Source: Microglena sp. YARC
Lineage: Eukaryota; Chlorophyta; Chlorophyceae; Chlamydomonadales; Chlamydomonadaceae
DNA length: 64,000 nt
Assembly: GCA_022414725.1 (NCBI GenBank)
Contig: CM039467.1
Location: 10,072,924-10,136,923 of the forward strand
Reading direction: 5' to 3'
Part shown: in pieces, positions 2,577 through 55,745 of the stretch
Layout: each line of letters starts with the position of its first letter
Position numbering within the stretch: position 1 is the first letter of the stretch
Notes under the pieces: generated by a model
The model's database searches: none
Told to the model about the DNA's origin: nothing
The model's input: only the letters and a program-made list of their open reading frames with translations
Position numbers and translations under genes: made by a program

Positions 2577-2744
2577 CCCACGTACAAGCTGACTGTTCGA
2601 ACCTCGTCAGTCGACGTCCTTCTTAAGGGAGGTCATGCTACTGCTCGTGAATCCAGCACCCAACAGACAGAGGACGGAGGCTACAACGAAACAGCCCTCC
2701 TGCGTGAGGTCTACAACAGCTGCTGTGCCTTGTTTGATAATGAG
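2577..2744 (+). CDS. Exon 1 (phase 0-0): N-terminal region before the LRR cap
   Basis: 56 codons. The acceptor is a pyrimidine-rich stretch ending GGCTGCAG and the donor is GTGAGT at 2745. It contains the YNETALL segment (an N-glycosylation sequon) and a CC pair, resembling the ALLxxxxxxxC start of plant LRR N-caps. Partial copies of its 5' edge recur upstream (about 1,219 to 2,391) and copies of its 3' edge recur downstream (about 2,885 to 3,830). Confidence 0.6.
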
Positions 2745-5700
2745 GTGAGTTTCTGGTGCAGGGGCGGGAGCGGGGCCCCCAAGGTCACCCCGTTGTCTGT
2801 TTGTCTGTTAGTTTGTTTGTGCGACCTGACTAGACATGACTAGGACACTGACCCATTGCTCTTGTCCTAAAAATTCTAAAAATAAGACTACAATGAAACC
2901 ACCCTCCTGCGTGAGATCTTCGACATTGATGCTGTTGTGCATTGTTTGATAACGAGGCGAGGAAAGTATAAATGTTGCAGTGGGACTGGCCCATTGCCCT
3001 TGTCCTAAGAATGCTAAAAATGAGTCTACAATGAAACAGCCCTTCTGCGAGAGATCTCCAATAGCTGCTGTGCATTGTTTGATAACGAGGCGAGGAAAGT
3101 ATAAATGTTGTAGTTGGTCTCGAGCCGCAGAAATAAGGGTCACCCCATTGTCCGTTTGTCTGTTAGTTTGTTTGTGCGACCAGCCTAGACCTGACTAGGT
3201 CACTGATCCTTTGCCCTTGTCCTAAGAACAAGACTGTAATGAAAGCGCCCTCCTGCTGCTGTGCATTGTTCAATAACGAGGTGAGGAGAGTGTAGACAGT
3301 TTGAAGACATGATTAGGTCACTGACCCATTGCCCTTGTCCTAAGAACAGGACTGTAATGAAAGCGCCCTCCTGCTGCTGTGCATTGTTCAATAACGAGGT
3401 GAGGAGAGTGTAGACAGTTTGAAGACATGATTAGGTCACTGACCCATTGCCCTTGTCCTAAGAACAAGACTGTAATGAAAGCGCCCTCCTGCTGCTGTGC
3501 ATTGTTCAATAACGAGGTGAGGAGAGTGTAGACAGTTTGAAGACATGATTAGGTCACTGACCCATTGCCCTTGTCCTAAGAATGCTAAGAACAAGGCGAC
3601 ACTGACCCCCCCTCGTGCGTGAGGTCAACAGCAGCTGTTGTGCCGTGCTCGATAACAAGGCGAGTTTTTTATTGTTGTTGTGGGAGATGAAGTTGCGATA
3701 TCAAGGTGTGAGAACTTGTCTAGGTCACTGACCCATTGCCCTTGTCCTAAGAATGAGGCAACACTGAAACCCCCCTCCTGCATGAGGTCTACAGCAGCTG
3801 TTGTACCGTGCTCGATCACGATATGAGTTTTTTGTTGTTGTTGTTGTAGTGGGACTTTGTTTTTTTGTTATAGTGGGACTTTTGTGTTGTTGTAGTGGGA
3901 CTCTAGTTTTTGTAGTTGCGATATTGAGTTAAGGAGTAGTATAACATTAATACATTGCATTCACTCCTAAGTGATGGACAGGTGTGTGTGTGTGTGTGTG
4001 TGTGGTGGTGGTGGTGGTGATGGGGGGGGGGGGGGGCAGGAAGACAGATTTTGGAACCGCATGTTCAAACGGTGTCCGATTCGATTTTCAATCGATTTTG
4101 AATCCCTCCGATTCTGCTGGGGGTTGGAATTGTGAAAATTTCAAACAAAAGGCGTGGGAACATATAGTTGGGATAAAGGTAATGATAACGCCTGGTGGGG
4201 CGTGGTGTTAAGGGAGCCCATCGTACGCGCGTAGGGAGCGGTATTCTACCTTAACTGGACAAGCTACCATCGCGGTTGACAACAACCTGCAACGCCAAGA
4301 GCGACCAAAGGGGGAATCGACCCCCCCACTCTTCATCCTCAAAGTGATTTGGTCTACCACAAGAAAGAGGCAGGGGAAATTTAGTTGGGAAAAGTGTGTA
4401 CCCTCCCCTTGGTGAAGAATGCACATACATGGGTGTGTACAGTTTGAAGACATGACTAGGTCACTGACCCATTGCACTACCTAACGTGTGATTATATTCT
4501 TGCAAGAGAGCCATTCCTGTGTAACCTCCATTCAAGCTTTTTGTAACCACCACCACCACTAACCACCACCACCACCAACACCAACACTACCAACACCACC
4601 AACACCACCAACACCAACATCAACACCAACACCAACACCACTACCTACCATATGCAGGGAGGAGAGGCACGCCAAATGCTACATCGTGCGTTGGTACCAC
4701 CACTAACCACCAACACCAACACCAAACACCAACACCAACACCAACACCACCAACACCAACACCAACACCAACACCAACACCAACACCAACACCAACACCA
4801 ACACCAACACCAACACCTACCATATCCAGGGAGGAGAGGCATGCCAAATGCTACATCGTGCCTTGGACCCTGCCTCTGGCTGGCAAGATGACATTTGCCA
4901 GCAACCACCTAATCAGGTAAGCTAGACTGGATTGGTGTCATGCTCTATCTGCCCCTACGCTGCTCACCGTCTGCTGGCGATTGGTGCTGGTCTGCGGAGT
5001 GAGTGTGGGAAGATCACATTTGCTAGCAACCTCGTAATCAGGTAAGCTAGACTGGATTGGTGTCATGCTCTATCTGCCCCTAGGCTGCTCACCGTCGAGT
5101 CTTGACTTGATTGGTTGATTGGTTGATTGGTTGGTTGGTTAACTTGATTGGTCTTTCTCTTGATTGGTCTTCTTTTGATTGGTCTTCCTCTTGTTGGTCT
5201 GTGTCTTGGTTGGTCTTCCTCTTGTTGGTCTTTCTCTTGTTGGTCTTCCTCTTGATTGGTCTGTCTCTTGTTGGTCTTCCTCTTCTTTGGTCTTCCTCTT
5301 GAAGGTCTTTCTCTCGTTGGTCTTTCTCTTGATTGGTCTTTCTCTTGAAGGTCTTTCTCTTCTTTGGTCTTCCTCTTGAAGGTCTTTCTCTTGTTGGTCT
5401 TTCTCTTGATTGGTCTTTCTCTTGAAGGTCTTTCTCTTCTTTGGTCTTCCTCTTGAAGGTCTTTCTCTTGTTGGTCTTTCTCTTGTTGGTCTTTCTCTTG
5501 AAGGTCTTTCTCTTCTTTGGTCTTCCTCTTGAAGGTCTTTCTCTTGTTGGTCTTTCTCTTGATTGGTCTTTCTCTTGAAGGTCTTTCTCTTATTTGGTCT
5601 TCCTCTTGAAGGTCTTTCTCTTGTTGGTCTTTTCTTGATCGGTCTTTCTCTTGAAGGTCTTTCTCTTATTTGGTCTTCCTCTTGAAGGTCTTTCTCTTGT

Positions 5701-8700
5701 TGGTCTTTCTCATGATTAATCTTTCTCTTGAAGGTCTTTCTCTTGCAGCGATAGGTGTTGGTTGGCGGAGCGAGTGTAAAAATTATTGGTCTATCTCGTT
5801 TTGACCTTTATCTTATTTACCTATCTCTTTATTACCTCTGTGTTTTTGACTTTGTGCAGTGCAACCATGCCGGGTATCTGAAGCGATTGGTGTTAGTTTG
5901 ACCACCAGCACCATCTACGACTCCACAACCACCGCTAACCACCTCCACCACCACCACTAACCACCACCACCACCGCCACAACCACTAACTAGTGCGACCA
6001 TGATGGATACTCGCGGCGATTGGTGTTGGTCGTTCTCGTTTGACCTCTGTCCGTTTGACTTTGTGCAGTGTGACCATGAAGGGTACTTGCGGCGATTAGT
6101 GCTGGTCGGCGGAGTGAGTGGAAACTTCATCTGCCTCAAGTTTCCTAAGGAGTTTGGCCAGTGAGTCTGTCTATGTGACCACAACTAGCTCTAACACTAA
6201 CTGTAGCATTTACACTACCTCTAGAACTAGCACTGGCACAAGTTTCTGGCACTGGCACTGGCACAAGTTTCAACCATGATTTCCCGGCCTGGATGTTTGA
6301 TCAAATTTCACATTGATTTAGGCAGCAGATGCGCAGCATACAACTCCCTCCTTCCCCCCCTCTCTCCCTCCCTCCCTCCCTCCCTCCCTCCCTCTCTCCC
6401 TCTCTCCCTCCCTCCCTCCCTAACTCCCTCCCTAACTCCCTAACTCCCTAACTCCCTCCCTCCCTAACTCCCTAACTCCCTCCCTCCCTCCCTCCCTCCC
6501 TCCCTCCCTCCCACCCTCCCTCCCTCCCTCTTTCCCTCCCTCCCTCCTTCCCTCCCTCCCTCTCTCCCTCCCTCCCTCCCTCCCTTCCTCCCAGATATCT
6601 CATGCCTCCCTCCCTCCCTCCTCCCTCCCTCCCTCCTTCCCTCCCTCCCTCTCTCCCTCCCTCCCTCCCTCCTTCCCTCCCTCCCTTCTTCCCTCCCTCC
6701 CTCTCTCCCTCCCTCCCTCCCTCCCTTCCTCCCAGATATCTCATACCTCCCTCCCTCCCTCCCTCCCTCCCTCCCTCCCTCCCCCTTTCCTCCCTCCCTC
6801 CCTCCCTCCCTCTCCCCCTCCCTCCCTCCCTCCCTCCTCCCACCCTCCCTCCCTCCCTCCCAGATATCTCATACCTCCCTCCCTCCCCTCCTTCCCTCCC
6901 TCCCTCCCTTCCTCCCAGATATCTCATACCTCCCTCCCTCCCTCTCTCCCTCCCTCCCTCCCTTCCTCCCAGATATCTCATACCTCCCTCCCTCCCTCTC
7001 TCCCTCCCTCCCTCCCTTCCTCCCAGATATCTCATACCTACCTCCCTCTCTCCCTCCCTCCCTCCCTCCCTCCTCCCTCCCTCCCTTCCCTCCCTCCTCC
7101 CTCCCTCCCTCCCTCCCTCCCTCCCTCCCTCCTCCCTCCCTCCCTCCCTCCCTCCCTCCCTCCCTCCCTCCTTCCCTCCCTCCCTCCTTCCCTCCCTCCC
7201 TCCCTCCCTCCCTCCTCCCTCCCTCCCTCCTTCCCTCCCTCCCTTCTTCCCTCCCTCCCTCCCTCCCTCCCTCCCTCCCTCCCTCCCTCCCTCCCTCCCT
7301 CCCTCCCTTCCTCCCAGATATCTCATACCTCCCTCCCACAATCCAATGCAATGACTCATGCACAAGTACACAAGTACACAAAAGTACACACACGCCCTCC
7401 CCCCCTCCCCCCCCCCCTCCTCCTCCCCCCCCAATCTTCAATGCCATGACACATGCACAAGTACACACAAGTACACACATGTACACACATGTACACACAA
7501 GTACACACAAGTACTCACAAGTACACTCATGTACACACAAGTACACACAAGTACACACAAGTACACACATGTACACAGAAACATGGTACACGCCTCCCTC
7601 CCACTCGTCAATGCAATGGCACGTGCACATGTACACATGCGAACACACATGTACATACAAGTATACACAAGTGCAGACAAGTATGTACAAGTATACAAAA
7701 GTGCAAACAAGTGCATACAAGAACATGCACATATACAAAAGTAGACACAAGTACACACAAACACGGTACAAACAAGTATCTACAAGAACATATCCCCGTT
7801 CGGAATTGGATGGCTCTATCGTAGAAGCAGGTGCGGGGTCTTATCAGGTTGCTGGTTCGAACCCCATCGAGGTAACCTGGGCCCATACCGGAGGGTCGTC
7901 GACCGGCATAGTAACTGGACTCTAGGTGTAAGCCCGTCCATCGCATGCTTACGAGCCGGGTCCCTTAACCCTACGTCCTTAGAAGTATCATTGTGACCTA
8001 TCTTGGAAGTTATGACTTTTTTTTACAGGAACATGCACATATACAAAAGTAGACACAAGTACACACAACACACAGTACACAAGTACACAAGTACACACAT
8101 ACACAAGTACGAACATACACAAGTACAAACAAGCTTGGTACACACACATACACAAGTACAAGCAGGCATGAGATACACACATACACAAGTACACACATAT
8201 GCAAGTACGCACAAGCACATTCACAAATACACACATACACAAGTACACACATATGCAAGTACGCACACACACATTCACAAGTACACACGCACACCCCATC
8301 TTCAATGTAATGGAACATGCACAAGGACACACACGTGCACAAGCACACACAAGTACGATATAGACCTCCCTTGCCATGCTATGACAACTCTTTGGCACAA
8401 GTACACAAGCACATTCACAAGTACACACGCCCACCCCATCTTCAATGTAATAGAACATGCACAAGGACACACACGTGCACAAGCACACACAAGTACGGTA
8501 CAGACCTCCCTTGACATGCTCTGACAACTCTTTGGCACAAGTACACACACATTCACAAGTACACACTCACACACCCTCTTCAATGTAATGGAACATGCAC
8601 AAGGACACGCACGTGCACAAGCACACACAAGTACGGTGCAGACCTCCCTTGCCATGCTATAACAACTCTTTGACCTGCATCCGTGTTTCAATGTGATGGC

Positions 8701-43658: not shown

Positions 43659-46355
43659 ACACACACCCACACACCCACCACCACCCATCATCACCCACTC
43701 ACCACAGGCCAACGGCAGTCTGCTGGAGTGCCCCTCATTGGATACTATCGACCATACTGTTCTAGTGGAGATGGCTGCCAACCATCTGCTCATACAGCTG
43801 CCATCTTGCCGGTTTCTTTTACAGCGGCATCATACGCATTACCCTCACCAACCCAACATGTACCCCACCCACCCCTCCCCCACCCCCCCAGGCCAATGGC
43901 AGTCTGCTGGAGTGCCCCTCATTGGATACTATCGACCATACCCTTCTAGTGGAGATGGCTGCCAACCATTTGCTCATACAGCTGTCATTCCTGTACAAGT
44001 TGAAGTGTCGCAGCGTGGAGTGGGGAGATGTAAGTCTAGGGAACGGTAGTGGGGGGCAGAATGGCCTGGTGGTATGTAGGGAACGGCACTATGATATCAT
44101 GTCAACAATTTGCTCATACAGCTGTCATTCTTGTACAAGTTGCAGAGTGGTAGCGTAGATTGGGGAGCTGTAAGTAAGCTGATTTTACTGAGCTGTTTTT
44201 ACCGAGCTGTGCTGATTTTACTGAGCAGGTTTTACTGAGCTGGCAGGCATAACCAGCACCTTGATGTACCACAAGTTGAAGTGTCACAGCGTGGAGTAGG
44301 GAGATGTAAGTCTAGGGAACGGTAGTGGGGGGCGGGGGGGGGGGCAGAATGGACTGGTGGTAGGTAGAAACGGCAGTATGATATCATGTCAACCATTTGC
44401 TCATACAGGAGTCATTCTTGTATGAGTTGAAATGTCGCAGCGTGGAGTGGGGAGATGTAAGTCTCATTTTGCCTATTCGTGTGGTGTATGACGCATACGA
44501 CTCCTTACATTACCCAATCTGACACCATGTTTCCCTCATACACCACCATTTGTATTGACTCATGGCTTGAGTGTTGATTGGGGAGATGCAGATCTAGAGA
44601 ACGGCAATACGATACCACGTCAACTATTTGCTCATACAGCTGTCATTGTTGTACAAATTGGAGTGTCGCAGTGTCGATTGGGGAGATGTAAGTCTAGGGA
44701 GCAGTAGTGGGGGGGGGGGGGGGGGGGGGCAGAATGGCCTGGTGGTAAGTAGGGAACGGCATTATGGTATCATGTCAACTATTTGCTCATACAGCTGTCA
44801 TTCTTGTACAAGTTGAAGTGTTGCAGTGTCGATTGGGGAGATGTCAGTATAGGGAACGGTAATGGTGGTGGGTTGGTGGTGGGGAAGAATGGCCTGGTGG
44901 TATAAAGGGAACGGCAATATGATATCATGCCATAATATGATATCATACGATGATGGCAGTCTGACTTGACCCAAGTTACCATTTATATATAATATCATAT
45001 GATGCAACTTGTATGATATCATACTCGCCTTTGGTCAACATCATATGATATGCCGGTCTCTATGTAAGTCACATTCGGCTATTTGTATTGACTTGGCCAA
45101 CTTGGCTGAATTAGGACTTTAGGCTATTTGTACTGACTCAGCTACCTTGGCTGATTTAGGACGTTTGGCTGTTTGTATTGACTTGGCCAACTTGGCTGAA
45201 TTAGGACGTTTGGCTGTTTGTATTGACTTGGCCAACTTGGCTGAATTAGGACTTTAGGCTATTTGTACTGACTCAGCCAACTTGGCTGAATTAGGGGCTT
45301 CTATTAGGGCTAGTTCACAAAGTTACACCACCACCAAAGACCAACATATGTGATGCTTTGACACGTCTTGCCAACACCTCCAACATCTCCAACACCAACA
45401 CGTCAACACCAACACAACCAACAACCAATATCACCAACACCAACACCACATATGTATATCAGTGATGCACTGTCACGTCTTGTCAACACCTCCAACACCA
45501 GCACATCAACACCAACACGACCAGCACCAACAAAACCAACACTATCAACACCACGGACACCACATATCTACATCAGTGATGCGCTGCCATGTCTTGCCAA
45601 CACCTCCAACATCAACAACAACACATAACACCAACACCTCCAACACCAGCACCTCAACACCAACTCGACCAACACCAACAACACGAACATCAGCTACACC
45701 ACCACCACCACCACGGATATACACCAGTGATGTTATGTCACGTCTTGCCAACACCTCCAACACCAACACCTACAACACCAACACATCAACACCAACACAT
45801 AACACCAACACCTCCAACATCAACACCAACACCTCAACACCAACAAATTAACATTAACACAACTAACATAACCAACACAACCAACACCACAGATCTAAAT
45901 CAGTGATGTGCTGGCACGTCTTGCCAACACCTCCGACACAAGCAACACCAACACCAACACAAGCAACAACACCAACTCCAACACCACAGTTCTACATCAG
46001 TGATGAGCTGTCACGTCTTACCAACATCTCCAACACCAACACTTCAACACCAACACATCAACACCAACACACAACACCAACACATAACACCAACACCTCC
46101 AACATCAACACCAACACCTCAACACCAACAAATCAACACCAACATGACCAACATAACCAACACCAACAACACCACAGATCTACATCAGTGATGCCCTGTC
46201 ACGTCTTGCCAAGACTCTTCCAGAGAGGTGAGAGGCAAGGTTTTAAATTACTGGGTTTTTGTTTTTTTATGAAAGGAATTTCACCCCATGAGGTGGTTCT
46301 CTCGACACAAACCTGGGGCACCGAGGATTCAGTTCGTGGCCCTGAAGATGATCCT

Positions 46356-49300: not shown

Positions 49301-52300
49301 TCCATCCCAGCCAACCTGATCCAGTTAGCTATGGGACCCGGAGCAATGGTTGAGAATTTGATCCTAGGCCCCACCATAGCCGTCCAGCATATAATTGGCC
49401 TGAAGCTCCTTTACTTCAACAATACAAACTTCTTCCCTTCCCATCCCAGCCAACCTGATCCACTTAGCTATGGGACCCGGAGCAATGATTGAGAATGTGA
49501 TCCTAGGCCCCACTGTAGCCTTGCAGCATATAATTGGGGTGAACGTCCTAAAAATCAGCAAACACGACTTCTTCCCTTCCCATCCCAGTCAACCTGAGTT
49601 GGTCAGCTCTGGAACCCCGAGCAATTGCTGAGAATGTGACCCTAGGCCCCACTGTAGCCCTACAGCATATAACCTGGGTGGACCTCCTATAATTCAACAA
49701 ACAACCTCCTTCTCTTGTCATCCTAGTCAACCTGAGCCGGACGGCTCTGGAACCCCGAGCAATTGCTGAGAATGTGAACCTAGGCCCAGCTGTAGCCCTA
49801 CAGCATATAACCTGGGTGGACCTCCTATAATTCAACAAACAACCTCCTTCTCTTGTCATCCTAGTCAACCTGAGCCGGACAGCTCTGGAACCCCGAGCAA
49901 TTGCTGAGAATGTGACCGTAGGCCCAGCTGTAGCACTACAGCATATAACCTGGGTGGACCTCCTATAATTCAACGGACAACCTCCTTCTCTTGTCATCCT
50001 AGTCAACCTGAGCCGGACAGCTCGGGAGCCCCAAGCAAGTGCTGAGAATGTGACCCTAGGCCCAGCTGTAGCCCTACAGCATATAACCTGGGTGAAACTC
50101 CTTTATTTCTACAAACACAACTTATTCCCTTCCCTTCTCATCCCAGTTAACCTTAGCCGGCCATCTCAGGAGCCCCTTACATACCTGCAATCTTCACAAA
50201 CAGGACTCCCTGTCCTACAACATTCTACAAACACCTCATTCCCTCCTAACCTTTAACAAACAAACTCCACGTGTCTTCATCCCAGTCAACCTGAGCAGGT
50301 CAGCTCTGGAGCCCTGAGCAATTGGCGAGGAGATGAATCTGAGGGAGTGATGGAGGGGGGGGGGGGGGGGGGGGGACAGGAGGCAGAAGCAAAGGCACCT
50401 TGATAGCAGTGCTTGTTTCAATAAACACTGCATGCCTTGCTCACATTCAACAAATAACTTATCCCCTCCTCTTTTCCATCCCAGTCAATCTGATCTGGTG
50501 AGCTCTGAAGCCCCAAGCAATGGCCCTGAAGATGACTACGGGGGGGGGGGGGGGGGGGGGGGAGGGGGGGGAAAGCAATGGCACCTTGATAGCAGTGCTT
50601 GTTTCAACAAACACCACATCCCCTCTCCATGGCCAACAAACAAGCTCCGCAGATTCATCCTCATCCTCATCCCTTCCTCAATTCAACAAACAAGCCCCTC
50701 TCATTCAACGAATAAGCCCCTCTCATTCAACGAACAAGCCCCTCTCATTCAACGAACAAGCCCCTCTCATTCAACGAACAATCTCCTCAAATTCATCCTC
50801 ATCCTCATCCCCTCCTCAATTCATCAAACAAGCCCCTCACATTTACCAAACAAGCTCCTAATCCTTATCCCCTCCTCTCTCCATCCCAGTCAACCTGATC
50901 TGGCCAGCTCTGGAGCCCTGAGCAATGGCTCCGGGGGAGGGGATGGCCGAACCAACTGCACCTTGATAGGCGTGATTGCTCCAACAAACACATCATGCCC
51001 TCCTCACACTCAACAACCAACTCATCCCCTCCTATTTCATCCCAGTAAACCTGATCTCGGCAGCTCTGGAGCACCGAGCAATGGCTCCGAGGGAGGGGGA
51101 GGCAGTACCAACGGCACCTTGATAGGCGTGATTGCTCCAACGAATACATCATCCCCTCCTCACATTCAACAACCAACTTATCCCTTCCTATTTCATCCCA
51201 GTAAACCTGAGCCTGTCAGCTCTGGTGCACCGAGCAATGGCTCCGAGGGAGGGGGAGGCGGTACCAACGACACCTTGAAAGGCGTGATTGCTTCAATGCA
51301 CACATCATCCCCTCCTTACATTCAACAACCAACACATCCCCTCCTCTCTGCATCCCAGTCAACCTAATCTCGGCAGCTCTGGAGAACCGAGCAATGGCTC
51401 CGAGGGAGGGGGAGGCGGAACCAATGGAACCTTGATAGGCGTGATTGCAGGCGTCTCTGCTGCAGCCATCTGCCTGTTGCTTGCAGCTTTGTACTTGTTG
51501 CACGTCAGACGCGCAAAGAAGGCTGACGAGGGTGCTGCACGTGCTACCGCAGCTACAACTGCAAGGCCAACATTCTATAACGTAAGTCTTTGTGCGTCCT
51601 GTTTTGTGAATATGATAGGTTAGGTCCCGTTTGTGATGATCACTGTTCCATGATGTAACACAATATCATGTTTTTGACAAGGGTGCTGCACATGCTGCCA
51701 CCGCTACTACTGCATGGCCAACATTCTATAACGTAAGTTTGATAACATTCTGCTTGTGAAGATGTTGTAGGATAGGATAGCCCCTGTCCGTGCAGATCAC
51801 TGTTACATGATGTGAATAAGTGTGTAGTGTTCTTGACGAGGGTGCTGCACATGCTGTGGCAGCTACTACTGCAAGGCCAACATTATATAACGTTATAAGT
51901 TGTATAACATCCTGTTTGTGAGGATGTTGTAGGGTTTGTGATGGGATGTGAATAGGTGTGTAGTGTTCTTGACGAGGGTGCTGCACATGCTGTGGCAGCT
52001 ACTATTGCAAGGCCGAAATTATATAACGTAAGTTGTATAACATCCTGTTTGTGAGGATCTTGTAGGGTTTGTGATGGGATGTGAATAGGTGTGTAGTGTT
52101 TGTGGCGAGGTTGCTGTGGCAGCTACAACTGCAAGGTTAACATTCTATGACGTAAGTCCTGTTTTACTAGATACATGGAAACACCAGGGTAATTCAAAGC
52201 GCGACCTTTTGCGCTTTTGAGCGGTGACTTTTTTACCCCCACTGCGCTTTAAGCGCAGTTTTTTGTAACTCCCGTAGGCGCAGCAAGCAATTTTTGCGCT

Positions 52301-54911
52301 TTTTGCACTACAAAGCGCAGTTTTCAAGTGTGCTAAAGCGCTGGCCAATTTGGCCATTTGAAGTACCCTGGTAAACACCCATTCCATCTAAGTAAATGCA
52401 TCTCACTAGATGAGTCTGAACCCATTCCCCTTAGTCGCTGCAGAACCCTGTTGTCTTCACTGCAATACTTATTAACACTCATCCAAGATGTGTACCAGCT
52501 TAAGTCCATGCTCCCTCGCATGCTGACGTCACTGATGTGAATCTAAACACCTATTTCTCTTGTCACTGCAGAACCCTGTTGTCTTCACTGCAACACTTAT
52601 AAACACTCATCCTCGATGTGTACCAACTACAGCCCATGCTCCGTCATATGCCAATGTCACTGATGTGAATCTAAACACCCATTCCCCTTGTCACTGCAGA
52701 ACCCTGTTGTCTTCACTGCAACACTTATAAACACTCATCCAAGATGTGTACCAGCTTAAGTCCATGCTCCCTCATATGCCAATGTCACTGATGTGAATCT
52801 AAACACCCATTTCCCTTGTCGCTGCAGAACCGTCGTCTTCCCTGCGACACTTATAAGCACTCATCCTACATGTGTGCCAACTACAGCCCATGCTCCTTCC
52901 CCCCCCCCCCCCCCCCGCCCCCCCCCATCCACCCATACCCATCCACACAACCATCCACACAACCATCCACACATCCACACATACCCACATGCTGACGTCA
53001 CTGATGTGAATATAAACAGCCATTCCCCTTGTCACTGCAGAATCCGTTGTCTTCACTGCAACACTTATAAACACTCATCCTCGATGTGTACCAACTACAG
53101 CCCATGCTCCGTCATATGCCAATGTCACTGATGTAAATCTAAGCAGCCATACCCCTTGTTGCCGCAGAATCCGCTATCTTCACTATGACACTTATAAATA
53201 GAGAACGGCAATATGACACTTATAAGCACCCACTTCACGCGTACCGGCTTCAGTCCATGCTCCCTCATATACTGATGTGAATCTAAACACTCATTCCCCT
53301 TGTCACTGCCGAATCCGCTATCTTCATTATGACACTTATAAATAGAGAACGGCAATATGACACTTATAAGCACCCACTTCACGCGTACCGGCTTCAGTCC
53401 ATGCTCCCTCATATACTGATGTGAATCTAAACACCCATTCCCCTTGTCACTGCCGAATCCGCTATCTTCACTATGACACTTATAAATAGAGAACGGCAAT
53501 ATGACACTTATAAGCACCCACTTTACGCGTACCGGCTTCAGTCCATGCTCCCTCATATACTGATGTGAATCTAAACACTCATTCCCCTTGTCACTGCCGA
53601 ATCCGCTATCTTCACTATGACACTTATAAATAGAGAACGGCAATATGACACTTATAAGCACCCACTTCACGCGTACCGGCTTCAGTCCATGCTCCCTCAA
53701 ATACTGATGTGAATATAAACACCCATTCTCCTTGCCACTGCAGAATCCGTTGTCTTCACCGGAGGTTCCCACCCTCGGCCTGCCCCTTTCCTTAGCTGAC
53801 AATCTTGGAAACGAGGGCATCAGGGATGCCAGGCCATGGGTCGGTGTGCAGGCTGACACTAATGCAGATGCTTCTTGGTACCAGAAGTTTGGAAAGATGC
53901 TGGGTGGAAACTCAGGTGGGTGAATATTACAAAATAGTGACAGATAACAACATATGGTTTGGCTTTCATGAAGTCTGGTTATTCAATTGAAGAGTCAGTG
54001 TGCAGGCTGACACTAATGCAAATGATTCTTGGTACCAGAAGTTTGGCATGATGCTGGGTGGAAACTCAGGTGGGTGAATATACGAAATAGTGACAGGTAA
54101 CAAAATAGTGACATATATCAGAATAGTGACAGATAACAACATAGATAGTGACATGTGTGGTTTAGCTTTCATGAAGTCTGGATATTCAGGATTAGGGTCA
54201 GTGTGCAGGCTGACACTGATGGAGATGCTTCTTGGTACCAGAGGTTTGGTAAGATGCTGCGTGGCAATTCAAGTGGGTGCTGAGTTTCCATTTTTTGTAC
54301 TGATTGCCACCGAAGCAAGTGGGTCTCCCTCCAGTGACCCCCTTCCCGAAATATTATCGTGTGTGGATAGATATTGGTTATAATTCATTAATTCTTATTA
54401 GACAGTTAAAGGGCCAGTGTGCAGGCTGACACTAATGGTGATGCTTCTTGGTACCAGAAGTTTGGAAAGATGCTGGGTGGAAACTCGGGTGGGTGCTGAC
54501 TTCCATTTTTATTTTTTATGAAGGATTTCCACCGAAACAAGTGGGTCTCCCTCCTGTTACCCCCTTCCCAAAATATTATTGCGTGAACAGGTGTTGGTTA
54601 TAATTCATGAATTATGTTTATTCAGTTGAAGGGTCGGTTTGCAGGCTGACACTAATGCAGATGCTTCCTGGTACCAGAGGTTTGGCAGGAAGCTGGGTGG
54701 CTACTCAGGTGGGTGGTTCAGACAAATACGATTGCAGGTGGAGTGTTTGCAAAGGAGAGCAGGTGGGGAAAGGTACATGATGTAACTCATGCCCCCCACC
54801 CCCACCCCACACACACCAATCTGGTTGCAGGTGGAGTGTTTGCAGGGGAAAGAGCGGGGTGGGGAAAGATAAATATTCCAACTCAGCCACACACACCCCT
54901 CCACACGTCCG

Positions 54912-54962: not shown

Positions 54963-55327
54963 CTGCCCCCCCCCCCCACCACCACCACCACCACACACAC
55001 CACACTACACCATACACACACCACCCCAATTTGATTGCAGGTGGCGTGTTCAATAGAGGGTCCAGCAGTGGAGGGAGCTCCAAATCATGCCCACCACCAC
55101 CACCACCACCACACACACCACACACACCCACACACCCCAATGTGATTGCAGGTGGCGTGTTCAATAGAGGGTCCAGCAGTGGAGGTAGCTCTAACGGTGG
55201 AGGAGGAAGGGGTGCATCTGGCAGCACTGGTGCTCGCGCACAGTGGACCTCTAACTTTCTCTTTACTCAGCACCAAGCTAAAGGAGGTAGTAGTGGTGGG
55301 GTTGGCGATTCAGAAAAAGCACTTTAA
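2577..55327 (+). CDS. LRR single-pass membrane protein, 16-exon gene model (5' end incomplete)
   Basis: Spliced model of about 745 codons. In order it encodes an N-terminal cap with Cys residues (exons 1-3), about 14 plant-type LRRs (exons 3-11; signatures [33 protein letters not shown]), a Cys-bearing C-cap (exon 12), a short linker (exon 13), a Ser/Gly stalk plus transmembrane helix (exon 14) and a tail without kinase or TIR motifs (exons 14-16). Proteins of this design are usually cell-surface receptors or scaffolds; ligand and partner cannot be inferred. All junctions except exon 6 to 7 keep codon phase, and split codons rebuild expected residues (CA+A gives Gln in [16 protein letters not shown]+G gives Leu; AG+T gives Ser). 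No start Met or signal peptide is assigned. Introns occupy about 96% of the span and are mostly tandem copies of the exon edges. It could be a decaying gene, but open exons and preserved phases argue against that. Confidence 0.75.
2745..3835 (+). repeat. Tandem copies of the exon 1 3' edge and donor
   Basis: Copies of the exon 1 end (GAGGTCTACAACAGCTGCTG, then TTTGATAATGAG and a GT-rich donor) at about 2,885, 3,028, 3,236, 3,354, 3,472, 3,620 and 3,785. The middle three have a 118-bp period. Some have lost codons, so they are decoys rather than coding exons. Confidence 0.8.
3836..4050 (+). repeat. TTG-rich, TG repeat and poly-G
   Basis: TTGTTG and TAGTGGGACT repeats, then a TG run (3981-4003) and a G16 run at 4021. 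No coding feature. Confidence 0.8.
4190..4365 (-). repeat. Dispersed repeat, copy 1
   Basis: Contains CCTGCAACGCCAAGAGCGAC through GATTTGGTCTACCA (4287-4361), which recurs at 39,284-39,363. The left end (CGCCTGGTGGGGCGTGGTG, TTAAGGG) is also echoed at about 56,443. It may be a SINE or other short mobile element; orientation is a guess. Confidence 0.5.
4540..4825 (+). repeat. ACC and ACCAAC repeats with an exon 2 5'-edge copy
   Basis: CCA triplets and CAACAC hexamers in two blocks, separated by a copy of the exon 2 start (CATATGCAGGGAGGAGAGGC at about 4,649). Confidence 0.85.
4830..4916 (+). CDS. Exon 2 (phase 0-0): LRR N-terminal cap, Trp/Cys part
   Basis: 29 codons between ATATCCAG and GTAAGC. 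The product contains [16 protein letters not shown] followed by DDIC, matching the W...C spacing that precedes CDxxGxLxxLxL in LRR N-caps; exon 3 supplies exactly that continuation. A copy of its 5' edge lies at about 4,650 and a copy of its 3' edge with donor at about 5,010-5,046. Confidence 0.7.
4917..6068 (+). repeat. Intron 2: exon-edge copies around a TTGGTCTTTCTCTTGA array
   Basis: A copy of the exon 2 3' edge with donor (ATCAGGTAAGCTAGACTGG) ends at about 5,056. From 5,105 to 5,745 a 15-18-bp unit with TTGGTCTTTCTCTTGAAGG variants repeats about 35 times. Copies of the exon 3 start (GACCATG, GCGATTGGTGTTGGTC) follow at 5.75-6.04 kb, with a CCA triplet block at 5,905-5,985. Confidence 0.8.
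6069..6160 (+). CDS. Exon 3 (phase 0-2): end of N-cap and first LRR
   Basis: Begins after TTGTGCAG with [15 protein letters not shown] and ends FPKEFGQ, with the Gln codon split CA|A. The donor is GTGAGT at 6161. The CD-x-x-G-Y-L-x-x-L-x-L pattern is typical of the cap-to-LRR1 transition. Three or four degraded 5'-edge copies precede it (about 4,975, 5,750, 5,865, 5,990). Confidence 0.75.
6335..7345 (+). repeat. 1-kb CCCT homopyrimidine tract
   Basis: Almost pure C/T on the plus strand, built of CTCC/CCCT tetramers. It is interrupted about seven times by an island reading CAGATATCTCATAC, at about 6,592, 6,734, 6,861, 6,917, 6,969, 7,024 and 7,315. The Gly/Arg/Glu minus-strand and Pro/Ser/Leu plus-strand frames across it are artefacts. 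Confidence 0.95.
7355..9180 (+). repeat. ACAAGTACAC arrays flanking a SINE
   Basis: ACACAAGTACAC-type octamers fill 7,358-7,780 and 8,029-8,300. From 8,300 to 9,180 they form about 100-bp higher-order units containing GACCTCCCTTGCCATGC, CAACTCTTTGGC and TTTCAATGTAATGG. A poly-C block (7,398-7,432) precedes the array. Confidence 0.85.
7792..8024 (+). mobile_element. tRNA-derived SINE
   Basis: A-box-like TGGCTCTATCG at 7811 and a perfect B box GGTTCGAACCC at 7854, about 43 nt apart as in Pol III tRNA promoters, then an unrelated body and a terminal T8 run (8017-8024). It is flanked by TACAAGAACAT (7781) and TACAGGAACAT (8024), a likely target-site duplication with one mismatch. It is not a tRNA gene: the cloverleaf 3' half is absent. 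Confidence 0.7.
9186..9232 (+). CDS. Exon 4 (phase 2-1): LRR core
   Basis: 47 nt after TTGTTGCAG, encoding [16 protein letters not shown] with the Gly codon split G|GT. The donor is GTGAGT at 9233. The perfect LxxLxxLDLSNN core identifies it. Six or seven copies of its 3' edge with the donor follow to about 9,850. Confidence 0.85.
9233..9930 (+). repeat. Tandem copies of the exon 4 3' edge
   Basis: Units of about 80-115 bp carry TTGAGCAACAACNTCATGAT followed by a GGTGAGT-like donor, then AGTATCAAGC and AGCTACAT repeats. Copies start near 9,311, 9,424, 9,535, 9,628, 9,717 and 9,818. Confidence 0.85.
9931..10200 (+). repeat. AT-rich CATTCACTACAATATTTATT repeat
   Basis: Short A/T-rich units with ATTTATTAC and TTCATTCAC between 9,990 and 10,135. 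The flanks are unique intron sequence with no recognised signal. Confidence 0.6.
10214..10411. mobile_element. hAT-type MITE, copy 1
   Basis: A 198-bp GC-rich element flanked by perfect 8-bp direct repeats ATGCAGGT (10206-10213 and 10412-10419). Imperfect terminal inverted repeats are CATGGTACTTCC on the left and TAGGGTGCTTCC as the right-end complement. The interior is full of GCGC and shares GGCGCAGCAAGCAATTT and GCGCTGGCCA with copy 2 at 52.2 kb. 8-bp duplications are the hAT hallmark. No ORF, so non-autonomous. Confidence 0.75.
10411..10440 (+). repeat. Partial exon 5 5'-edge copy
   Basis: TGCAGGTGGGCTGGAGGGTG matches the exon 5 acceptor and first codons (TGCAGGTGGGCTGGAAGATG). It directly abuts the MITE, whose right target-site repeat contains the copied acceptor. 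Confidence 0.6.
10492..12005 (+). repeat. 21-bp CAGCTG satellite with a higher-order spacer
   Basis: A 21-bp unit built on ACAGCTGAACCTTGTGGCAC repeats about 60 times. From 10,849 a spacer reading TTTCAATTTCAATTTC then ATGCCCAAG recurs every 106-232 bp, in nine blocks. The period is a multiple of three, so open frames arise on both strands; I reject them as genes. Confidence 0.95.
12184..12293 (+). CDS. Exon 5 (phase 1-0): LRR
   Basis: 110 nt after GCGTGCAG. It encodes [20 protein letters not shown], then [16 protein letters not shown], one clear plant-type LRR. The donor is GTGAGT at 12294. A partial copy of its start (AATGCAGGTGGGCTGGAGG) lies at about 10,411, immediately 3' of a MITE. Confidence 0.85.
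12294..12640 (+). repeat. Long-form copies of exon 6 and its upstream intron
   Basis: Two copies of about 170 bp hold intron text, acceptor (CACAG or CGCAG) and the exon 6 start CATGATACCCTTGAGGTTG at 12,436 and 12,612. The 75-bp array begins inside the second. Confidence 0.85.
12640..24010 (+). repeat. 75-bp satellite from exon 6, about 150 copies
   Basis: The unit is AATGCCGTAATGGGGCGCAT, then CCCATCGTGCGTCACACTGG, then GCATTG plus about 29 bp of AT-rich text with TTTCTTGAAATAAACAAG. The first 45 bp encode [15 protein letters not shown], the second half of exon 6's first LRR. Two variants are ordered in space: TGTAG with AAGTAAAT up to about 14.7 kb, and TGCAG with AAGTGAAT beyond about 15.1 kb. 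Copies are near-identical to 17.1 kb, then increasingly broken by indels, extreme at 21.5-24.0 kb. The long minus-strand frames (up to 872 codons) exist because 75 is a multiple of three. Confidence 0.95.
24011..24429 (+). repeat. Long-form exon 6 5'-edge copies, right flank
   Basis: Two degraded copies with GATACCCTTGAGG (about 24,077 and 24,246) precede the intact exon 6. They mirror the long-form copies at 12.3-12.64 kb on the other side of the satellite. Confidence 0.8.
24430..24660 (+). CDS. Exon 6 (starts phase 0; 3' end uncertain): two LRRs
   Basis: Starts after TTCTTCGCAG with [20 protein letters not shown] and runs on in frame through [18 protein letters not shown], two LRRs. The donor GTAAG at 24661 would end the exon in phase 0, whereas exon 7 begins in phase 1. 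Copies of its tail near 24,921, 25,187 and 25,341 lack about 53 nt present here (24587-24644); the 25,187 copy reads [12 protein letters not shown] in frame, and the donor AACG|GTAAG shared by the copies would then give phase 1. So the end used, or the sequence itself, is in doubt. GTGAGG at 24511 is an alternative donor. Confidence 0.6.
24661..25610 (+). repeat. Exon 6 3'-edge copies separated by G/T-rich tracts
   Basis: Copies of the exon 6 tail (GAGAACTACCTTTTGG, then AGCAACAACGGTAAGATGG) at about 24,921, 25,187 and 25,341, separated by 100-250-bp runs of TG and poly-G. The G runs could form quadruplexes. Confidence 0.8.
25611..26590 (+). repeat. G/T-rich intron with short recurring segments
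   Basis: ACAAGCTTGGGAGATT with TTCATAATTCATGG occurs at about 25,667, 25,869 and 26,058. TTTTTGGTTGCATTTCACTC occurs at about 26,270 and 26,337, with a related form at 26,557. GGTGGGTG runs fill the rest. These might be edge copies of an exon I cannot identify. Confidence 0.6.
26591..27185 (+). repeat. Telomere-like AAACCCTGAACC repeats with exon 7 5'-edge copies
   Basis: Degenerate AACCCTGAACCCT and CCCTAAACCCTGAAC units, interleaved with TTATCAGGTGGCTTCATATT, the acceptor and first codons of exon 7, near 26,655, 26,765, 26,838 and 26,994. Confidence 0.75.
27186..28029 (+). repeat. Poly-C/TAGGCTTTGTAAAGCC array with exon 7 5'-edge copies
   Basis: CCCCTAGGCTTTGTAAAGCC repeats at 27.4-27.7 kb between C runs. 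Exon 7 starts (TTCATATTCATTGGGATCAT) recur at about 27,190, 27,348 and 27,789. Confidence 0.8.
28030..28128 (+). CDS. Exon 7 (phase 1-1): LRR, founder of the 72-nt cassette array
   Basis: 99 nt after TTTCATCAG. It encodes [16 protein letters not shown], then [17 protein letters not shown], ending G|GTGTGT. An internal CATAG at 28052-28056 marks where the downstream array units begin. From there to the donor is exactly 72 nt, one 24-residue LRR. 5'-edge copies precede it (26,650-27,800) and eight cassette copies follow. Confidence 0.8.
28129..29250 (+). repeat. Array of 72-nt LRR cassettes with AG and GT ends
   Basis: Eight units of about 130-147 bp. In five, the segment between GTGCATAG and GTGTGTG is exactly 72 nt in phase 1-1 and encodes one complete LRR ([15 protein letters not shown], then IDVSRNNIS): 28197-28268, 28618-28689, 28900-28971, 29040-29111 and 29174-29245. 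A sixth (28756-28827) is 72 nt with compensating indels; those starting at 28329 and 28469 are broken. Confidence 0.85.
29251..31570 (+). repeat. Diverged exon 7-like copies in TG/poly-G sequence
   Basis: Further copies with GATATATCCAGGAACAACAT, then a second family with TTAAGAAGCTGGATAGAATC, TTGAATCACATTCG and CTATCCAGGAACAACATAGC at about 29,970, 30,120, 30,320, 30,550, 30,710, 30,830, 30,990 and 31,140. Many indels. The unique stretch 29,780-29,960 holds nothing I recognise. Confidence 0.7.
31840..32115 (+). repeat. ATC/CAT triplet repeat
   Basis: Imperfect CATCATCAT and CACCATCA triplets, with GCAGCAGCAGTAG at the end. No gene; 31,570-31,840 is G/T-rich intron. Confidence 0.9.
32240..32760 (+). 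repeat. Two 240-bp copies of the exon 8 5' edge
   Basis: CTGCAGGTGCTTTCCCCCAA and the following codons (through GTTTTCATCTG) recur at 32,275 and 32,515 before the intact exon at 32,761. Each is followed by about 150 bp of shared intron rich in TCAACCTCACAG and CACACTGCT. Confidence 0.85.
32761..32913 (+). CDS. Exon 8 (phase 1-1): two LRRs
   Basis: 153 nt after AACACTGCAG. It encodes [20 protein letters not shown], then [12 protein letters not shown], then [18 protein letters not shown]. The donor is GTGAGT at 32914. It continues exon 7 in frame ([13 protein letters not shown], a normal LRR step). Two 5'-edge copies precede it (32,281 and 32,521) and about ten or more 3'-edge copies follow. 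Confidence 0.85.
32914..34800 (+). repeat. 119-bp array of the exon 8 3' edge
   Basis: About seven near-identical units (32.9-33.75 kb) carry GCTCTCCTGGCTGGAGGTAA, then the CCACAGAGTGAGTTTG donor region. More diverged units continue to 34.8 kb, with intercalated GTATGGGTGTGTGAGGATTG. In the units the exon text CTGCGGGCT has become TTGCAGGCT, creating a new AG. Confidence 0.85.
34970..36145 (+). repeat. CA / AACACGCACGCAAACGCACA repeat
   Basis: 1.2 kb of CACACA tracts punctuated by AAACACGCACGCAAACGCAC about every 40 bp. His/Thr frames on plus and Cys/Val frames on minus are artefacts. Confidence 0.95.
36146..36541 (+). repeat. Copies of the exon 9 5' edge
   Basis: GCTACAGACATCAAATCAGC (about 36,151) and GCTACAGGTATCAAATCAGC (about 36,338) repeat the acceptor and first codons of exon 9, with TACTTGGAGT. 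The CCCCACACC-rich stretch 36,395-36,490 separates them from the exon. Confidence 0.8.
36542..36673 (+). CDS. Exon 9 (phase 1-1): two LRRs
   Basis: 132 nt after CACTACAG. It encodes [20 protein letters not shown], then [13 protein letters not shown], then [12 protein letters not shown]. The donor here is GCGAGC, a GC-AG type; the next copy of the same edge (about 36,926) has GTGAGC, so either may be used. The phase-1 join to exon 8 rebuilds Ser (A|GC). Confidence 0.8.
36674..37920 (+). repeat. Copies of the exon 9 3' edge
   Basis: Copies of the exon 9 second half (GTGGTGCCCGACTCTGAAGT through TTTTCAGGTGAGC) at about 36,857, 37,030, 37,212, 37,423, 37,614 and 37,846. Later ones show GGCCTGGGGTGGTCCCCGAC. 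Intron parts share CTGTTTTGACTGTTTTTGAC. Confidence 0.85.
37921..38665 (+). repeat. GGT repeat and copies of the exon 10 5' edge
   Basis: GGTGGTGGT (37,935-37,980), then about four copies of CACTCCCTTGC, AGTCCA and TGGGCGGCAATGCACTGGAC, the exon 10 acceptor side, at 38.10, 38.24, 38.39 and 38.53 kb. Confidence 0.8.
38666..38879 (+). CDS. Exon 10 (phase 1-2): two LRRs with a loop
   Basis: 214 nt after CACCCCAG. It encodes [20 protein letters not shown], then [11 protein letters not shown], a polar insertion [10 protein letters not shown], then [16 protein letters not shown] (NVT sequon) and [10 protein letters not shown] with the Leu codon split TT|G. The donor is GTAAGT at 38880. 5'-edge copies lie at 38.1-38.65 kb and 3'-edge copies at 38.93-39.2 kb. 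Confidence 0.85.
38880..39215 (+). repeat. Copies of the exon 10 3' edge
   Basis: AGAAGCTTGGCATGTTTCAC with the donor TTGTAAGTCA recurs at about 38,957 and 39,060. A further piece at 39,119 repeats the middle of the exon (AGCCTGGAGGCTTTTGGC). Confidence 0.8.
39220..39425 (+). repeat. AT microsatellites and dispersed repeat copy 2
   Basis: TA runs at 39,226-39,275 and 39,397-39,424 flank CCTGCAACGCCAAGAGCGAC through GATTCGGTCTACCAGTAGAC (39,284-39,364), related to 4,287-4,361. It contains a GAGTCG/CGACTC hairpin. Confidence 0.65.
39430..40380 (-). other. Unexplained island with internal direct repeats
   Basis: Less repetitive than its surroundings. CTTGACTGCAAATTCTTCCC and TGAGAAACCTGTCGCT recur at 39,840 and 39,980 (about 140 bp apart), with a weaker copy at 39,740. 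A minus-strand frame of 118 codons (39,802-40,158) is internally repetitive. No family recognised; an old transposon fragment is possible. Confidence 0.3.
40385..41312 (+). repeat. G-rich tracts, TA microsatellite and exon 11 5'-edge copy
   Basis: GGGAGG and GGGTGG tracts plus a run of about 26 G (40,870-40,896). Then CAGTAACATATCCTGTTCTT-type units at about 40,972, 41,100, 41,143, 41,190 and 41,281. The first carries an exon 11 start copy (GGTCATTCTTGCTGTGAGCA). A TA run of about 40 bp lies at 41,216. Confidence 0.75.
41313..41457 (+). CDS. Exon 11 (phase 2-0): last LRR
   Basis: 145 nt after TTGACACAG. It encodes [20 protein letters not shown], then [20 protein letters not shown] and MKVLISQQ. 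The donor is GTGTGC at 41458. The first base completes the Leu codon of exon 10. A 5'-edge copy lies at about 40,998 and two or three 3'-edge copies at 41.76-42.06 kb. Confidence 0.8.
41480..41745 (+). repeat. 29-bp tandem repeat, about nine copies
   Basis: TGTATGCATTCAATGTATTG recurs every 29 bp from 41,481. All three plus-strand frames stay open through it and give the same cyclic peptide. Confidence 0.95.
41755..42070 (+). repeat. Copies of the exon 11 3' edge
   Basis: GAAGCTGTCACTGAGGACCA and TTCTCATTTC, then CAACAGGTG, at about 41,763 (diverged), 41,890 and 42,017. A GCTT microsatellite lies at 41,966. Confidence 0.8.
42090..43080 (+). repeat. CCCTAACACCAACACC repeat with 70-80-bp units
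   Basis: Units combine ACTACCCTAACCCTAACACC, CCCCTCCACCAACACCCC and ACAAACCAAACGTCACC. CCCTAACCCTAAC resembles telomeric repeat, but no end is indicated. Confidence 0.85.
43081..43891 (+). repeat. Copies of the exon 12 5' edge, about 200 bp each
   Basis: Four copies of GATACTATCGACCATACTGT and GCAGCCAACCATCT, most with the preceding AG acceptor, at about 43,086, 43,270, 43,495 and 43,707. They are separated by C-rich tracts (CCCCCACCCC). Confidence 0.85.
43892..44029 (+). CDS. Exon 12 (phase 0-0): C-terminal cap of the LRR domain
   Basis: 46 codons after a C-rich tract ending CCCAG. It encodes [20 protein letters not shown], then [19 protein letters not shown] and RSVEWGD. The two Cys (LEC, KLKC) and the NGS sequon suit an extracellular C-cap. 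The donor is GTAAGT at 44030. 5'-edge copies lie at 43.08-43.8 kb and 3'-edge copies at 44.1-44.86 kb. Confidence 0.8.
44030..45060 (+). repeat. Copies of the exon 12 3' edge
   Basis: TTTGCTCATACAGCTGTCAT through GGGGAGATGTAAGTCTAGG recurs at about 44,109, 44,265 (partial), 44,397, 44,628 and 44,787. Poly-G runs lie at 44,330 and 44,708. Confidence 0.85.
45061..45300 (+). repeat. About 60-bp repeat, four copies
   Basis: CTATTTGTATTGACTTGGCC, then AACTTGGCTGAATTAGGAC, repeats between 45,078 and 45,300. Origin unknown. Confidence 0.85.
45320..46177 (+). repeat. Exon 13 copies in a CAACACC repeat
   Basis: CATCAGTGATGCACTGTCAC and GTCTTGCCAACACCTCC, the exon 13 start, recur about every 115-140 bp within CAACACCAACACC repeats. 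Confidence 0.85.
46178..46227 (+). CDS. Exon 13 (phase 0-2): short linker
   Basis: 50 nt after AACACCACAG, encoding [16 protein letters not shown] plus a split Ser codon (AG|T). The donor is GTGAGA at 46228. At least six upstream copies of this exon start at about 45.34 to 46.0 kb. The assignment rests on acceptor, donor, phase fit and repetition; no domain is recognised. Confidence 0.6.
46228..51358 (+). repeat. 5-kb array of the exon 14 stalk edge
   Basis: About 20 units of 130-180 bp. Each has CCATCCCAG (acceptor), codons matching the stalk (GCAATGGCTCCGGGGGAGGG, ACCAATGGCACCTTGATAGG), then CGTGATTGCTCCAACAAACA and CTCCTCACATTCAACAA. A variant unit at 49.1-50.1 kb carries GCTGAGAATGTGACCCTAGG and AGCATATAA. 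Poly-G runs lie at 46,353 (about 42 G), 50,347 and 50,540. Only the last copy continues into the TM segment. Confidence 0.9.
46235..46330 (+). repeat. Short dispersed segment shared with 57.37 kb
   Basis: GGGTTTTTGTTTTTTTATGA, then AAGGAATTTCACCCCATGAG, resembles 57,368-57,427 in the LINE region. It may be a small LINE-derived insertion. Confidence 0.4.
51359..51581 (+). CDS. Exon 14 (phase 2-0): Ser/Gly stalk and transmembrane helix
   Basis: 223 nt after GCATCCCAG. The stalk has [20 protein letters not shown] with two N-glycosylation sequons. A hydrophobic stretch of about 23 residues follows ([12 protein letters not shown] through ALYLL) and ends at HVRRAKK, a classic stop-transfer signal, giving type I topology. 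The cytoplasmic start is Ala/Thr-rich and ends ARPTFYN. The donor is GTAAGT at 51582. The array at 46.3-51.35 kb is made from the stalk part of this exon. Confidence 0.85.
51582..52165 (+). repeat. Copies of the exon 14 3' edge
   Basis: GACGAGGGTGCTGCACATGC and AAGGCCAACATTCTATAACG with a GTAAGT donor recur at about 51,680, 51,837, 51,972 and 52,105. Confidence 0.85.
52185..52370. mobile_element. hAT-type MITE, copy 2
   Basis: 186 bp with terminal inverted repeats CAGGGTAATTCAAA and TTTGAAGTACCCTG (13 of 14 paired), flanked by GGAAACAC and GTAAACAC (7 of 8 identical). The body shares GGCGCAGCAAGCAATTT, GCGCTTTTTGCACT and AAGCGCTGGCCA with copy 1 at 10.2 kb. No ORF. Confidence 0.8.
52371..53743 (+). 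repeat. Copies of the exon 15 5' edge
   Basis: CCCCTTGTCACTGCAGAACC and TGTTGTCTTCACTGCAACAC recur at about 52,425, 52,555, 52,682, 52,808 and 53,024. From 53,150 an altered 145-bp unit (TGACACTTATAAATAGAGAA) repeats four times. The acceptor CAG has become CCG in several of these. Confidence 0.85.
53744..53915 (+). CDS. Exon 15 (phase 0-1): cytoplasmic tail
   Basis: 172 nt after CCACTGCAG. It encodes [20 protein letters not shown], then [30 protein letters not shown] and KMLGGNSG. The donor is GTGGGT at 53916. No family recognised; it is not low-complexity, so a conserved tail is plausible. 5'-edge copies lie at 52.4-53.7 kb and 3'-edge copies at 54.0-54.7 kb. Confidence 0.75.
53916..54730 (+). 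repeat. Copies of the exon 15 3' edge
   Basis: GTGTGCAGGCTGACACTAAT through AACTCAGGTGGGTG recurs at about 53,999, 54,202, 54,416 and 54,638. Each is a 67-nt segment between AG and GT, phase 0-1. Confidence 0.85.
54731..55151 (+). repeat. Copies of the exon 16 5' edge
   Basis: GATTGCAGGTGGAGTGTTTG-type starts at 54,732, 54,825 and 55,033. They are separated by CCCCACACACACC tracts. Confidence 0.85.
55152..55327 (+). CDS. Exon 16 (phase 1): last coding exon with stop codon
   Basis: After GTGATTGCAG. It encodes [18 protein letters not shown], then [29 protein letters not shown] and VGDSEKAL, with the stop TAA at 55325. The tail is Ser/Gly-rich and likely flexible. Earlier 5'-edge copies sit at 54.74, 54.83 and 55.04 kb. 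Two copies of its 3' part follow at about 55.4 and 55.6 kb. Use of GGAG|GTAGTA as a donor instead cannot be excluded. Confidence 0.65.
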
Positions 55328-55745
55328 AGGACCCCCTATTAAACCGCTTTCAAGTAGAGAAATATTATCAGCTTCTAGGTAGCTCCTTGACCACTGCAGC
55401 CTAGTGCAGATCTGGCAGCAGTGGTACTCACACACCATGGAGGCATGGACCTCTAACTTTCTCTTTACTCAGCACCAAGCTAAAGAGGCAGTAGTGGTAG
55501 GGTTGGCGATTCAGAAAAGGCACTTTAAAGGCCCCCCTATTAAACCGCTTTCAAGTAGGAAAAGATTAGCAGCTTCTAGGTAGCTCCTTAACCACTGCAG
55601 CCTAGTGCAGATCTGGCAGCAGTGGTAATCACACACAATGGACCTCGAACTTCTCTTTACCTAGCACCAGGCTAAAGGTGGTAGTTAGTGGTGGGGTTGG
55701 CGATTCAGGAATTGCACTTTGAAGGAGCCCCCTTCCTTAGCAGCA
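55328..55745 (+). repeat. Copies of the exon 16 3' part and 3' flank
   Basis: GGACCTCTAACTTTCTCTTT, CAGCACCAAGCTAAA and GTTGGCGATTCAGAAAA recur at about 55,447 and 55,640, each with CTTCTAGGTAGCTCC. Sequence 55,745-56,300 holds ACCGG-rich unique text with no feature I recognise. Confidence 0.8.

Follow-up and report, generated by a model that had tools for sequence, protein, structure and literature searches.

How does a gene with about 2.2 kb of coding sequence come to occupy about 52.7 kb? The question is raised by a leucine-rich repeat (LRR) gene of the green alga Microglena sp. YARC, which lies in a stretch of 64,000 nucleotides (nt) (GenBank assembly GCA_022414725.1, contig CM039467.1, positions 10,072,924 to 10,136,923; hereafter the window) on contig C6 of a 568-Mb assembly of 2,390 contigs. 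An earlier note on this DNA had given these sizes and proposed that every intron of the gene is built from tandem copies of its own exon edges, neutral duplications that would ratchet up intron length. Setting exon borders from AG/GT dinucleotides (one GC) and the reading frame, we obtained a plus-strand model of 16 exons at 2577–55327, with 2,237 nt of exonic sequence within 52,751 bp; the gene end formerly placed at 55727 falls in copies of the 3′ end of the last exon and its flank, not in an exon. The best reading of the locus, to which we assign a probability of about 0.8, is frequent local tandem duplication filtered by mRNA integrity.

Each exon with 60 nt of flank on either side was compared with the window, and matches were counted when they included at least 12 nt of exon. 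This search returned 281 further matches, all on the same strand and none inverted; the copies are local and head-to-tail, as in minisatellite expansion. We then placed 60-nt probes over each splice junction and used shuffled probes as a control. Copies crossing the junction were found upstream of 14 of the 16 acceptors and downstream of 12 of the 15 donors, while none lay on the opposite side, that is, in the intron downstream of an acceptor's exon (0/16) or upstream of a donor's exon (0/15). Only one of 620 shuffled probes had any match, bearing out the claim that exon-edge copies in these introns exceed chance. With these probes, no crossing copy was found for the acceptors of exons 4 and 11 or the donors of exons 3, 5, and 13; the exon 13 acceptor probe had one more crossing match elsewhere in the window, probably a simple-repeat match. 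By a looser rule, 14 of the 15 introns contained edge copies, intron 3 being the exception, and "every intron" was thus a slight overstatement. Together, these results establish that the copied-edge pattern is real and far above chance.

A dispersed family would leave copies away from this gene. When one exon 9 stretch was compared with the whole genome, eight matches were obtained, seven in the LRR gene and one of 37 nt on another contig (simple repeats were skipped, and the counts are therefore lower bounds). Likewise, among 26 other loci (257.9 kb), four of the 31 LRR junction probes had some match and none had a crossing copy. The genome-wide dispersal that the earlier note had named as evidence against its proposal was thus not seen in either comparison. 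These data also bear on the idea that mobile introns or introners brought the sequences in, which the numerous and repeat-rich introns might suggest. Introners form one family common to the introns of different genes; in this limited test, which comprised a single query of the entire genome and the 31 probes on 257.9 kb, no such family appeared, the arrays being private to their own exons, and their copies are direct without exception, making this explanation scarcely credible.

The pattern had been presented as a property of one gene. We sampled 10-kb loci at intervals along C6 (20 in all, two of them with 1–2.5 kb of N). The median share of 60-nt probes with a direct copy in the same locus was 34%, compared with 55–93% in six 10-kb blocks of the LRR window (1–60 kb) and 33% at 54–64 kb. 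In this sample, locus L018 contains an ArgD-like gene whose seven exons join into an open frame; it was spotted among six loci chosen out of 23 for many direct repeats and is not an unbiased pick. Three multi-exon chaperonin genes, each with 6–7 Pfam Cpn60_TCP1 matches within 10 kb, were selected by exon number from about eleven clusters with at least three matches; two of them showed overlapping profile ranges, a possible hint of copies that was not a selection criterion. With exon edges placed by hand in these four genes, crossing copies were found upstream of 14 of 25 acceptors (downstream, 0/25) and downstream of 11 of 23 donors (upstream, 0/23). None of 480 shuffled probes matched, and 2 of the 48 junction probes had an inverted match. 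Copies overlapping exons covered 18–46% of the intron bases in these genes, and in all five genes edge copies occurred in 30 of 37 introns (LRR 14/15, ArgD-like 5/6, chaperonins 11/16).

The joined frames were open for the ArgD-like gene and two of the three chaperonin genes. In the L038 chaperonin gene the frame was not open, the first exon start was unplaced, and one exon probably carries an indel, making its edges less sure. In the L039 gene, the profile stretch between exons 5 and 6 had no match and intron 5 may hide an exon; the donor of its exon 4 is seemingly GC. The five-exon join of the L040 chaperonin alpha gene was identical to EukProt entry P0242 at 367 of 367 residues, and its closest named entries came from Sanguina (80%) and from Astrephomene and Chlamydomonas (79%). 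Donor-edge copies were also noticed, outside any sampling, behind an LSm4-like exon (named from sequence) and an unnamed exon at two more loci. Edge copying is therefore not special to the LRR gene but occurs in several unrelated genes, in loci on contigs C1, C2, C5, and C6. From five genes on four contigs, we infer that it may be genome-wide.

Are exon edges preferred, as the earlier note implied? Copies within 15 kb were found for 182 of 200 probes at random LRR intron positions (74/200 in the 56–64 kb flank) and for 66 of 82 exon-interior probes, with copies extending at most 154 nt into exons. Junctions are thus repeated about as much as introns generally, and exon-overlapping copies account for 45% of the LRR intron bases, leaving 55% uncovered. 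Moreover, a segment made up of the 3′-terminal 112 nt of exon 16, the stop-codon border, and part of the 3′ flank occurs in two copies at 55410–55731 on the plus strand, the same process at a border other than a splice site. The preference for edges was therefore not upheld: edges are far above shuffled probes, which disposes of the chance-level sharing that the note had set as its own test, but no more repeated than introns at large.

These counts also weigh on a process aimed at splice junctions, for example through breaks at junction-proximal RNA–DNA hybrids during splicing. Such a process could account for copies at 26 of the 31 LRR junctions and for splice dinucleotides that are retained in the copies (AG in 61/76, GT in 59/73) slightly above their neighbors (71%). 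However, it does not lead one to expect random intron positions to be repeated as often, which also holds for the chaperonin genes (46%, 51%, and 60% of intron probes, against crossing copies at 9/18 acceptors and 7/17 donors), nor a copied stop-codon border, nor the richness of sampled C6 loci in local direct repeats. We consider it unlikely, and splice-site targeting was rejected on the repetition of introns at large and the copied stop-codon border. Since duplication across a stop codon and its 3′ flank would be equally harmless, the copies there argue for a general process with a filter, not one directed at splicing.

We next considered how the copies are ordered. In introns holding both kinds, all donor copies preceded all acceptor copies in 17 of 17 cases in the five genes, and in none of their introns did a donor copy lie within 400 nt after an acceptor copy, so that no decoy acceptor–donor pair forms an extra exon. 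The decoys themselves resemble functional sites. A scoring matrix was built from 38 real donors and 41 real acceptors. The 10th percentile of real sites was exceeded by 74 of the 102 decoy donors and 93 of the 114 decoy acceptors, with median scores of 7.4 versus 8.7 for donors and 6.6 versus 7.3 for acceptors. Exons were free of internal duplication (0/40 exons of at least 60 nt, two shorter ones being omitted), whereas 57 of 120 intron segments of matching lengths contained one.

The gene product shows what the exons encode. Exons 7–16 join into a single open 500-residue frame ending in TAA, and exons 1–6 into 245 residues without a stop; the latter frame breaks inside exon 6, where an insertion relative to the array copies of that exon and to EukProt entry P0001 keeps it from running on into exon 7. 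The first feature of the model is an acceptor, which requires a further exon upstream that is missing from the model. The product exceeds the Pfam cut-offs for LRR_1 (81.4 bits) and LRR_8 (57 bits), and its leucine-rich repeats are of the extracellular type known from plant-type LRR receptor-like proteins. It ends in 189 residues without a Pfam family, and exon 14 encodes a hydrophobic, membrane-span-like segment, as judged by eye. Over 75% of the LRR part, P0001 shows 91% identity, and the named matches ranked after it are largely plant receptor-like proteins. By visual comparison, P0001 starts inside exon 6 and has junctions 8/9, 9/10, 10/11, 11/12, 14/15, and 15/16 in common with our model. 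Judging from reading frames and database entries, the terminal copy adjoining the exon body is apparently the one used.

The arrays could also serve as a working reservoir from which cassette exons are drawn to diversify the LRR receptor. By eye, copies of exon 7 at 28192–29241 contain a 72-nt stretch after AG that, if spliced, would each add one in-frame 24-residue LRR, and two array copies are included in P0001. Nevertheless, arrays of this kind are present in housekeeping genes, the aligned edge copies include no acceptor-to-donor pair within 400 nt in any intron, and P0001 may have been predicted ab initio, so that we regard a working reservoir as distinctly improbable. The near copies of exon 7 are a possible route to new LRR modules.

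Intron 5 calls for caution about the assembly. It holds about 119 copies of a 75-bp unit (12645–21585, plus strand, indel-rich from about 17 kb), composed of an inner piece of exon 6 and non-exon sequence, which is a secondary amplification of an exon 6 edge copy. The stretch 17000–24100, as measured in this array, is indel-rich and nearly without substitutions up to 21 kb; 28320–31500 also appears indel-rich by eye. Such stretches seem typical of unpolished long-read sequence, and the exon 6 frameshift may have the same cause; array lengths in the indel-rich 75-bp region and the frame of exon 6 are unreliable. The three 4-kb blocks with this array (12001–24000) have a CpG observed/expected ratio of 1.04–1.06, compared with 0.28–0.53 in the other blocks of the window. 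Might unpolished long reads have invented or multiplied the repeats altogether? The jump in indel bases from 0–0.1 per 100 before 17 kb to 2–11 per 100 beyond that point, the near absence of mismatches at 17–21 kb, and the shifted frame of exon 6 fit this idea. However, many copies diverge by 5–30% with substitutions and spacings of their own, which an assembler could hardly make; the pattern recurs on four contigs; and P0001, probably from another assembly, contains array sequence by eye. An artifact is thus very improbable.

Local tandem duplication with an mRNA filter would account for these observations as follows. Tandem duplications would often arise locally in the genome, most of them between some tens and about 240 bp long, and selection on mRNA would eliminate those inside exons. 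Duplications across one border only would persist, the exon retaining the outermost intact junction, while the extra copy of exon edge, splice site, and intron edge would turn into intron, from which the next event could restart. Introns would lengthen from each end toward the middle, leaving decoy donors after the upstream exon and decoy acceptors before the downstream one. Under exon definition, a splice site without a partner across the exon is ignored. As a lone acceptor or lone donor would define no exon, the decoys would be ignored and the arrays silent. The duplicating process itself may be slippage or unequal exchange, and neutrality and splicing by exon definition would complete the scheme. 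The neutral ratchet proposed earlier is thus well supported and is sharpened by terminal-copy use, as read from the frame, and by the 17/17 donor-then-acceptor order, but the gradient of divergence with distance that it predicts is weak.

Several observations weigh against this reading. If new copies arise near the exon, identity to the exon should drop with distance; it did so in 11 of 16 arrays with at least four copies (pooled permutation p = 0.0008), but the gradient was absent or reversed in the other five and became weak without the exon 7 donor array (p = 0.044). The slightly higher retention of decoy splice dinucleotides is not predicted by neutrality, and one-sidedness tests tandem origin, not neutrality, since it is largely the geometry of tandem duplication. 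In the four other genes, 11 of 25 acceptors and 12 of 23 donors had no crossing copy, and 7 of the 37 introns in the five genes had no edge copy. By eye, P0001 lacks exons 7 and 13 as well as the beginning of exon 14, and two array copies figure in it as exons. No whole-exon copy with both splice sites, the product of tandem exon duplication, was found in the five genes, but this absence lacks statistical significance given the unit lengths (expected, 1.66 of 48 arrays; P(0) = 0.14), and whole-exon avoidance was dropped as evidence for selection.

Exons and edge copies are arranged along the LRR gene as follows, all on the plus strand. Exon 1 (2577–2744; acceptor ctgcag, donor gtgagt) lies between eight acceptor-edge copies (1001–2461) and seven donor-edge copies (2885–3830), five of the latter found by the 60-nt junction probe. 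Exon 2 (4830–4916) has one copy of each edge (acceptor, 4600–4694; donor, 5006–5096). An acceptor-edge copy at 5824–5892 and another beginning at the edge (5991–6032) precede exon 3 (6069–6160), for which donor copies were not found in the window. Six donor-edge copies (9315–9902) follow the 47-nt exon 4 (9186–9232), and exon 5 (12184–12293) has one acceptor-edge copy (10413–10447) and no donor copies. Exon 6 (24430–24660) has two acceptor-edge copies about 12 kb upstream (12380–12694), a nearer pair within approximately 24040–24310, and two donor-edge copies within approximately 24990–25360. Exon 7 (28030–28128), which encodes one LRR, is preceded by five acceptor-edge copies (26740–27819) and followed by 19 copies of its sequence (28192–31564), 18 of which include the donor edge. 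Around exon 8 (32761–32913) are two acceptor-edge copies (32238–32612) and 14 donor-edge copies (32947–34801), the identity of the latter dropping from 97% to 71% with distance.

Farther downstream, exon 9 (36542–36673) has two acceptor-edge (36142–36395) and six donor-edge copies (36852–37924); its own donor at 36673 is GC, yet five of the six downstream copies have GT. Four acceptor-edge copies (38049–38589) precede exon 10 (38666–38879), and three copies of its sequence follow (38922–39211), two with the donor edge. Similarly, exon 11 (41313–41457) is followed by three copies within 41782–42064, two with the donor edge. Exon 12 (43892–44029) is flanked by four acceptor-edge (43074–43804) and five donor-edge copies (44100–44916), the first of which is seemingly an exon in P0001, by eye. 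The 50-nt exon 13 (46178–46227) has six acceptor-edge copies (45326–46024). As many as 25 (46502–51291) precede exon 14 (51359–51581), which is followed by four copies of its sequence (51675–52158), three with the donor edge. Exon 15 (53744–53915) has eight acceptor-edge (52503–53615) and four donor-edge copies (53994–54715), and exon 16 (55152–55327), with TAA at its end, has one acceptor-edge copy (54976–55083).

Other features of the window and the sampled loci were also recorded. Searching the window for Rfam families and tRNAs yielded no matches. By eye, similar stretches with "aagcgcag" blocks occur in different introns (10200–10330 and 52195–52370), with an inverted likeness near 9640–9740 of L018; they likely represent a dispersed element. 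Long open reading frames resembling retroelement proteins by eye lie at 58600–60700 and 62000–64000, two tested pieces of which had no Pfam match. Elsewhere in the assembly, rbcL is present in four copies with an identical score over the whole profile (L034–L037; contigs C996, C1833, and C2356), and the 266,940-base contig C996 carries two of these, oriented oppositely; the tested rbcL piece showed at most 94% identity among the 120 database representatives listed.

How does this differ from known systems? Intronic minisatellites and satellite-filled giant introns are enlarged by tandem repeats unrelated to the exon. Tandem repeats enlarge the present introns too, but here the repeat contains the exon edge and splice site. 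Intron gain by tandem duplication of exonic AG/GT sequence is reportedly known from human tandem arrays (Zhuo et al. 2007). In Drosophila, a new intron arises in this way inside an exon (PMC2891723). Both there and in the LRR gene, tandemly duplicated coding sequence turns into intron, but here existing introns seem to grow, and the units extend across a junction already present. Internal tandem repeats at human exon–intron boundaries, with 27 intron modifications, similarly change what is exon and what is intron, but there the outcome, in duplicates of recent origin, is new introns or coding repeats that vary (PMC2812944), whereas here introns of unrelated conserved genes are filled and the model protein is unchanged. 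Tandem amplification is likewise described for Tetrahymena LRR genes with arrays of 90-bp exons, for which unequal crossing over was proposed (PMC6564038); whole exons with introns are multiplied and coded there, unlike the present copies, which among those examined hold exon edges only and never whole exons, and which also occur in non-LRR genes.

Within the open-access papers, as far as their available text goes, known accounts do not describe the growth of unrelated genes' introns from exon edges. In the open-access literature we found no account of introns growing in this way, most subscription papers lying outside that search, and the available excerpts of PMC5741210 and PMC3488318 do not describe it. 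On balance, we think it more likely than not that this is an undescribed, genome-wide form of intron growth, in which serial border-crossing tandem duplication proceeds inward from both flanking exons, is tolerated via exon definition, and leaves behind the donor-then-acceptor order of decoys and a readable growth history.

Intron lengthening is usually explained by transposons; here, much of the new sequence is traceable to the exon itself. The near-perfect copies of real splice sites that stand beside the apparently used ones provide a natural test of exon definition, and neutral gene growth becomes measurable event by event. Gene finders, moreover, may mistake such edge copies for exons, as seems to have happened in P0001.

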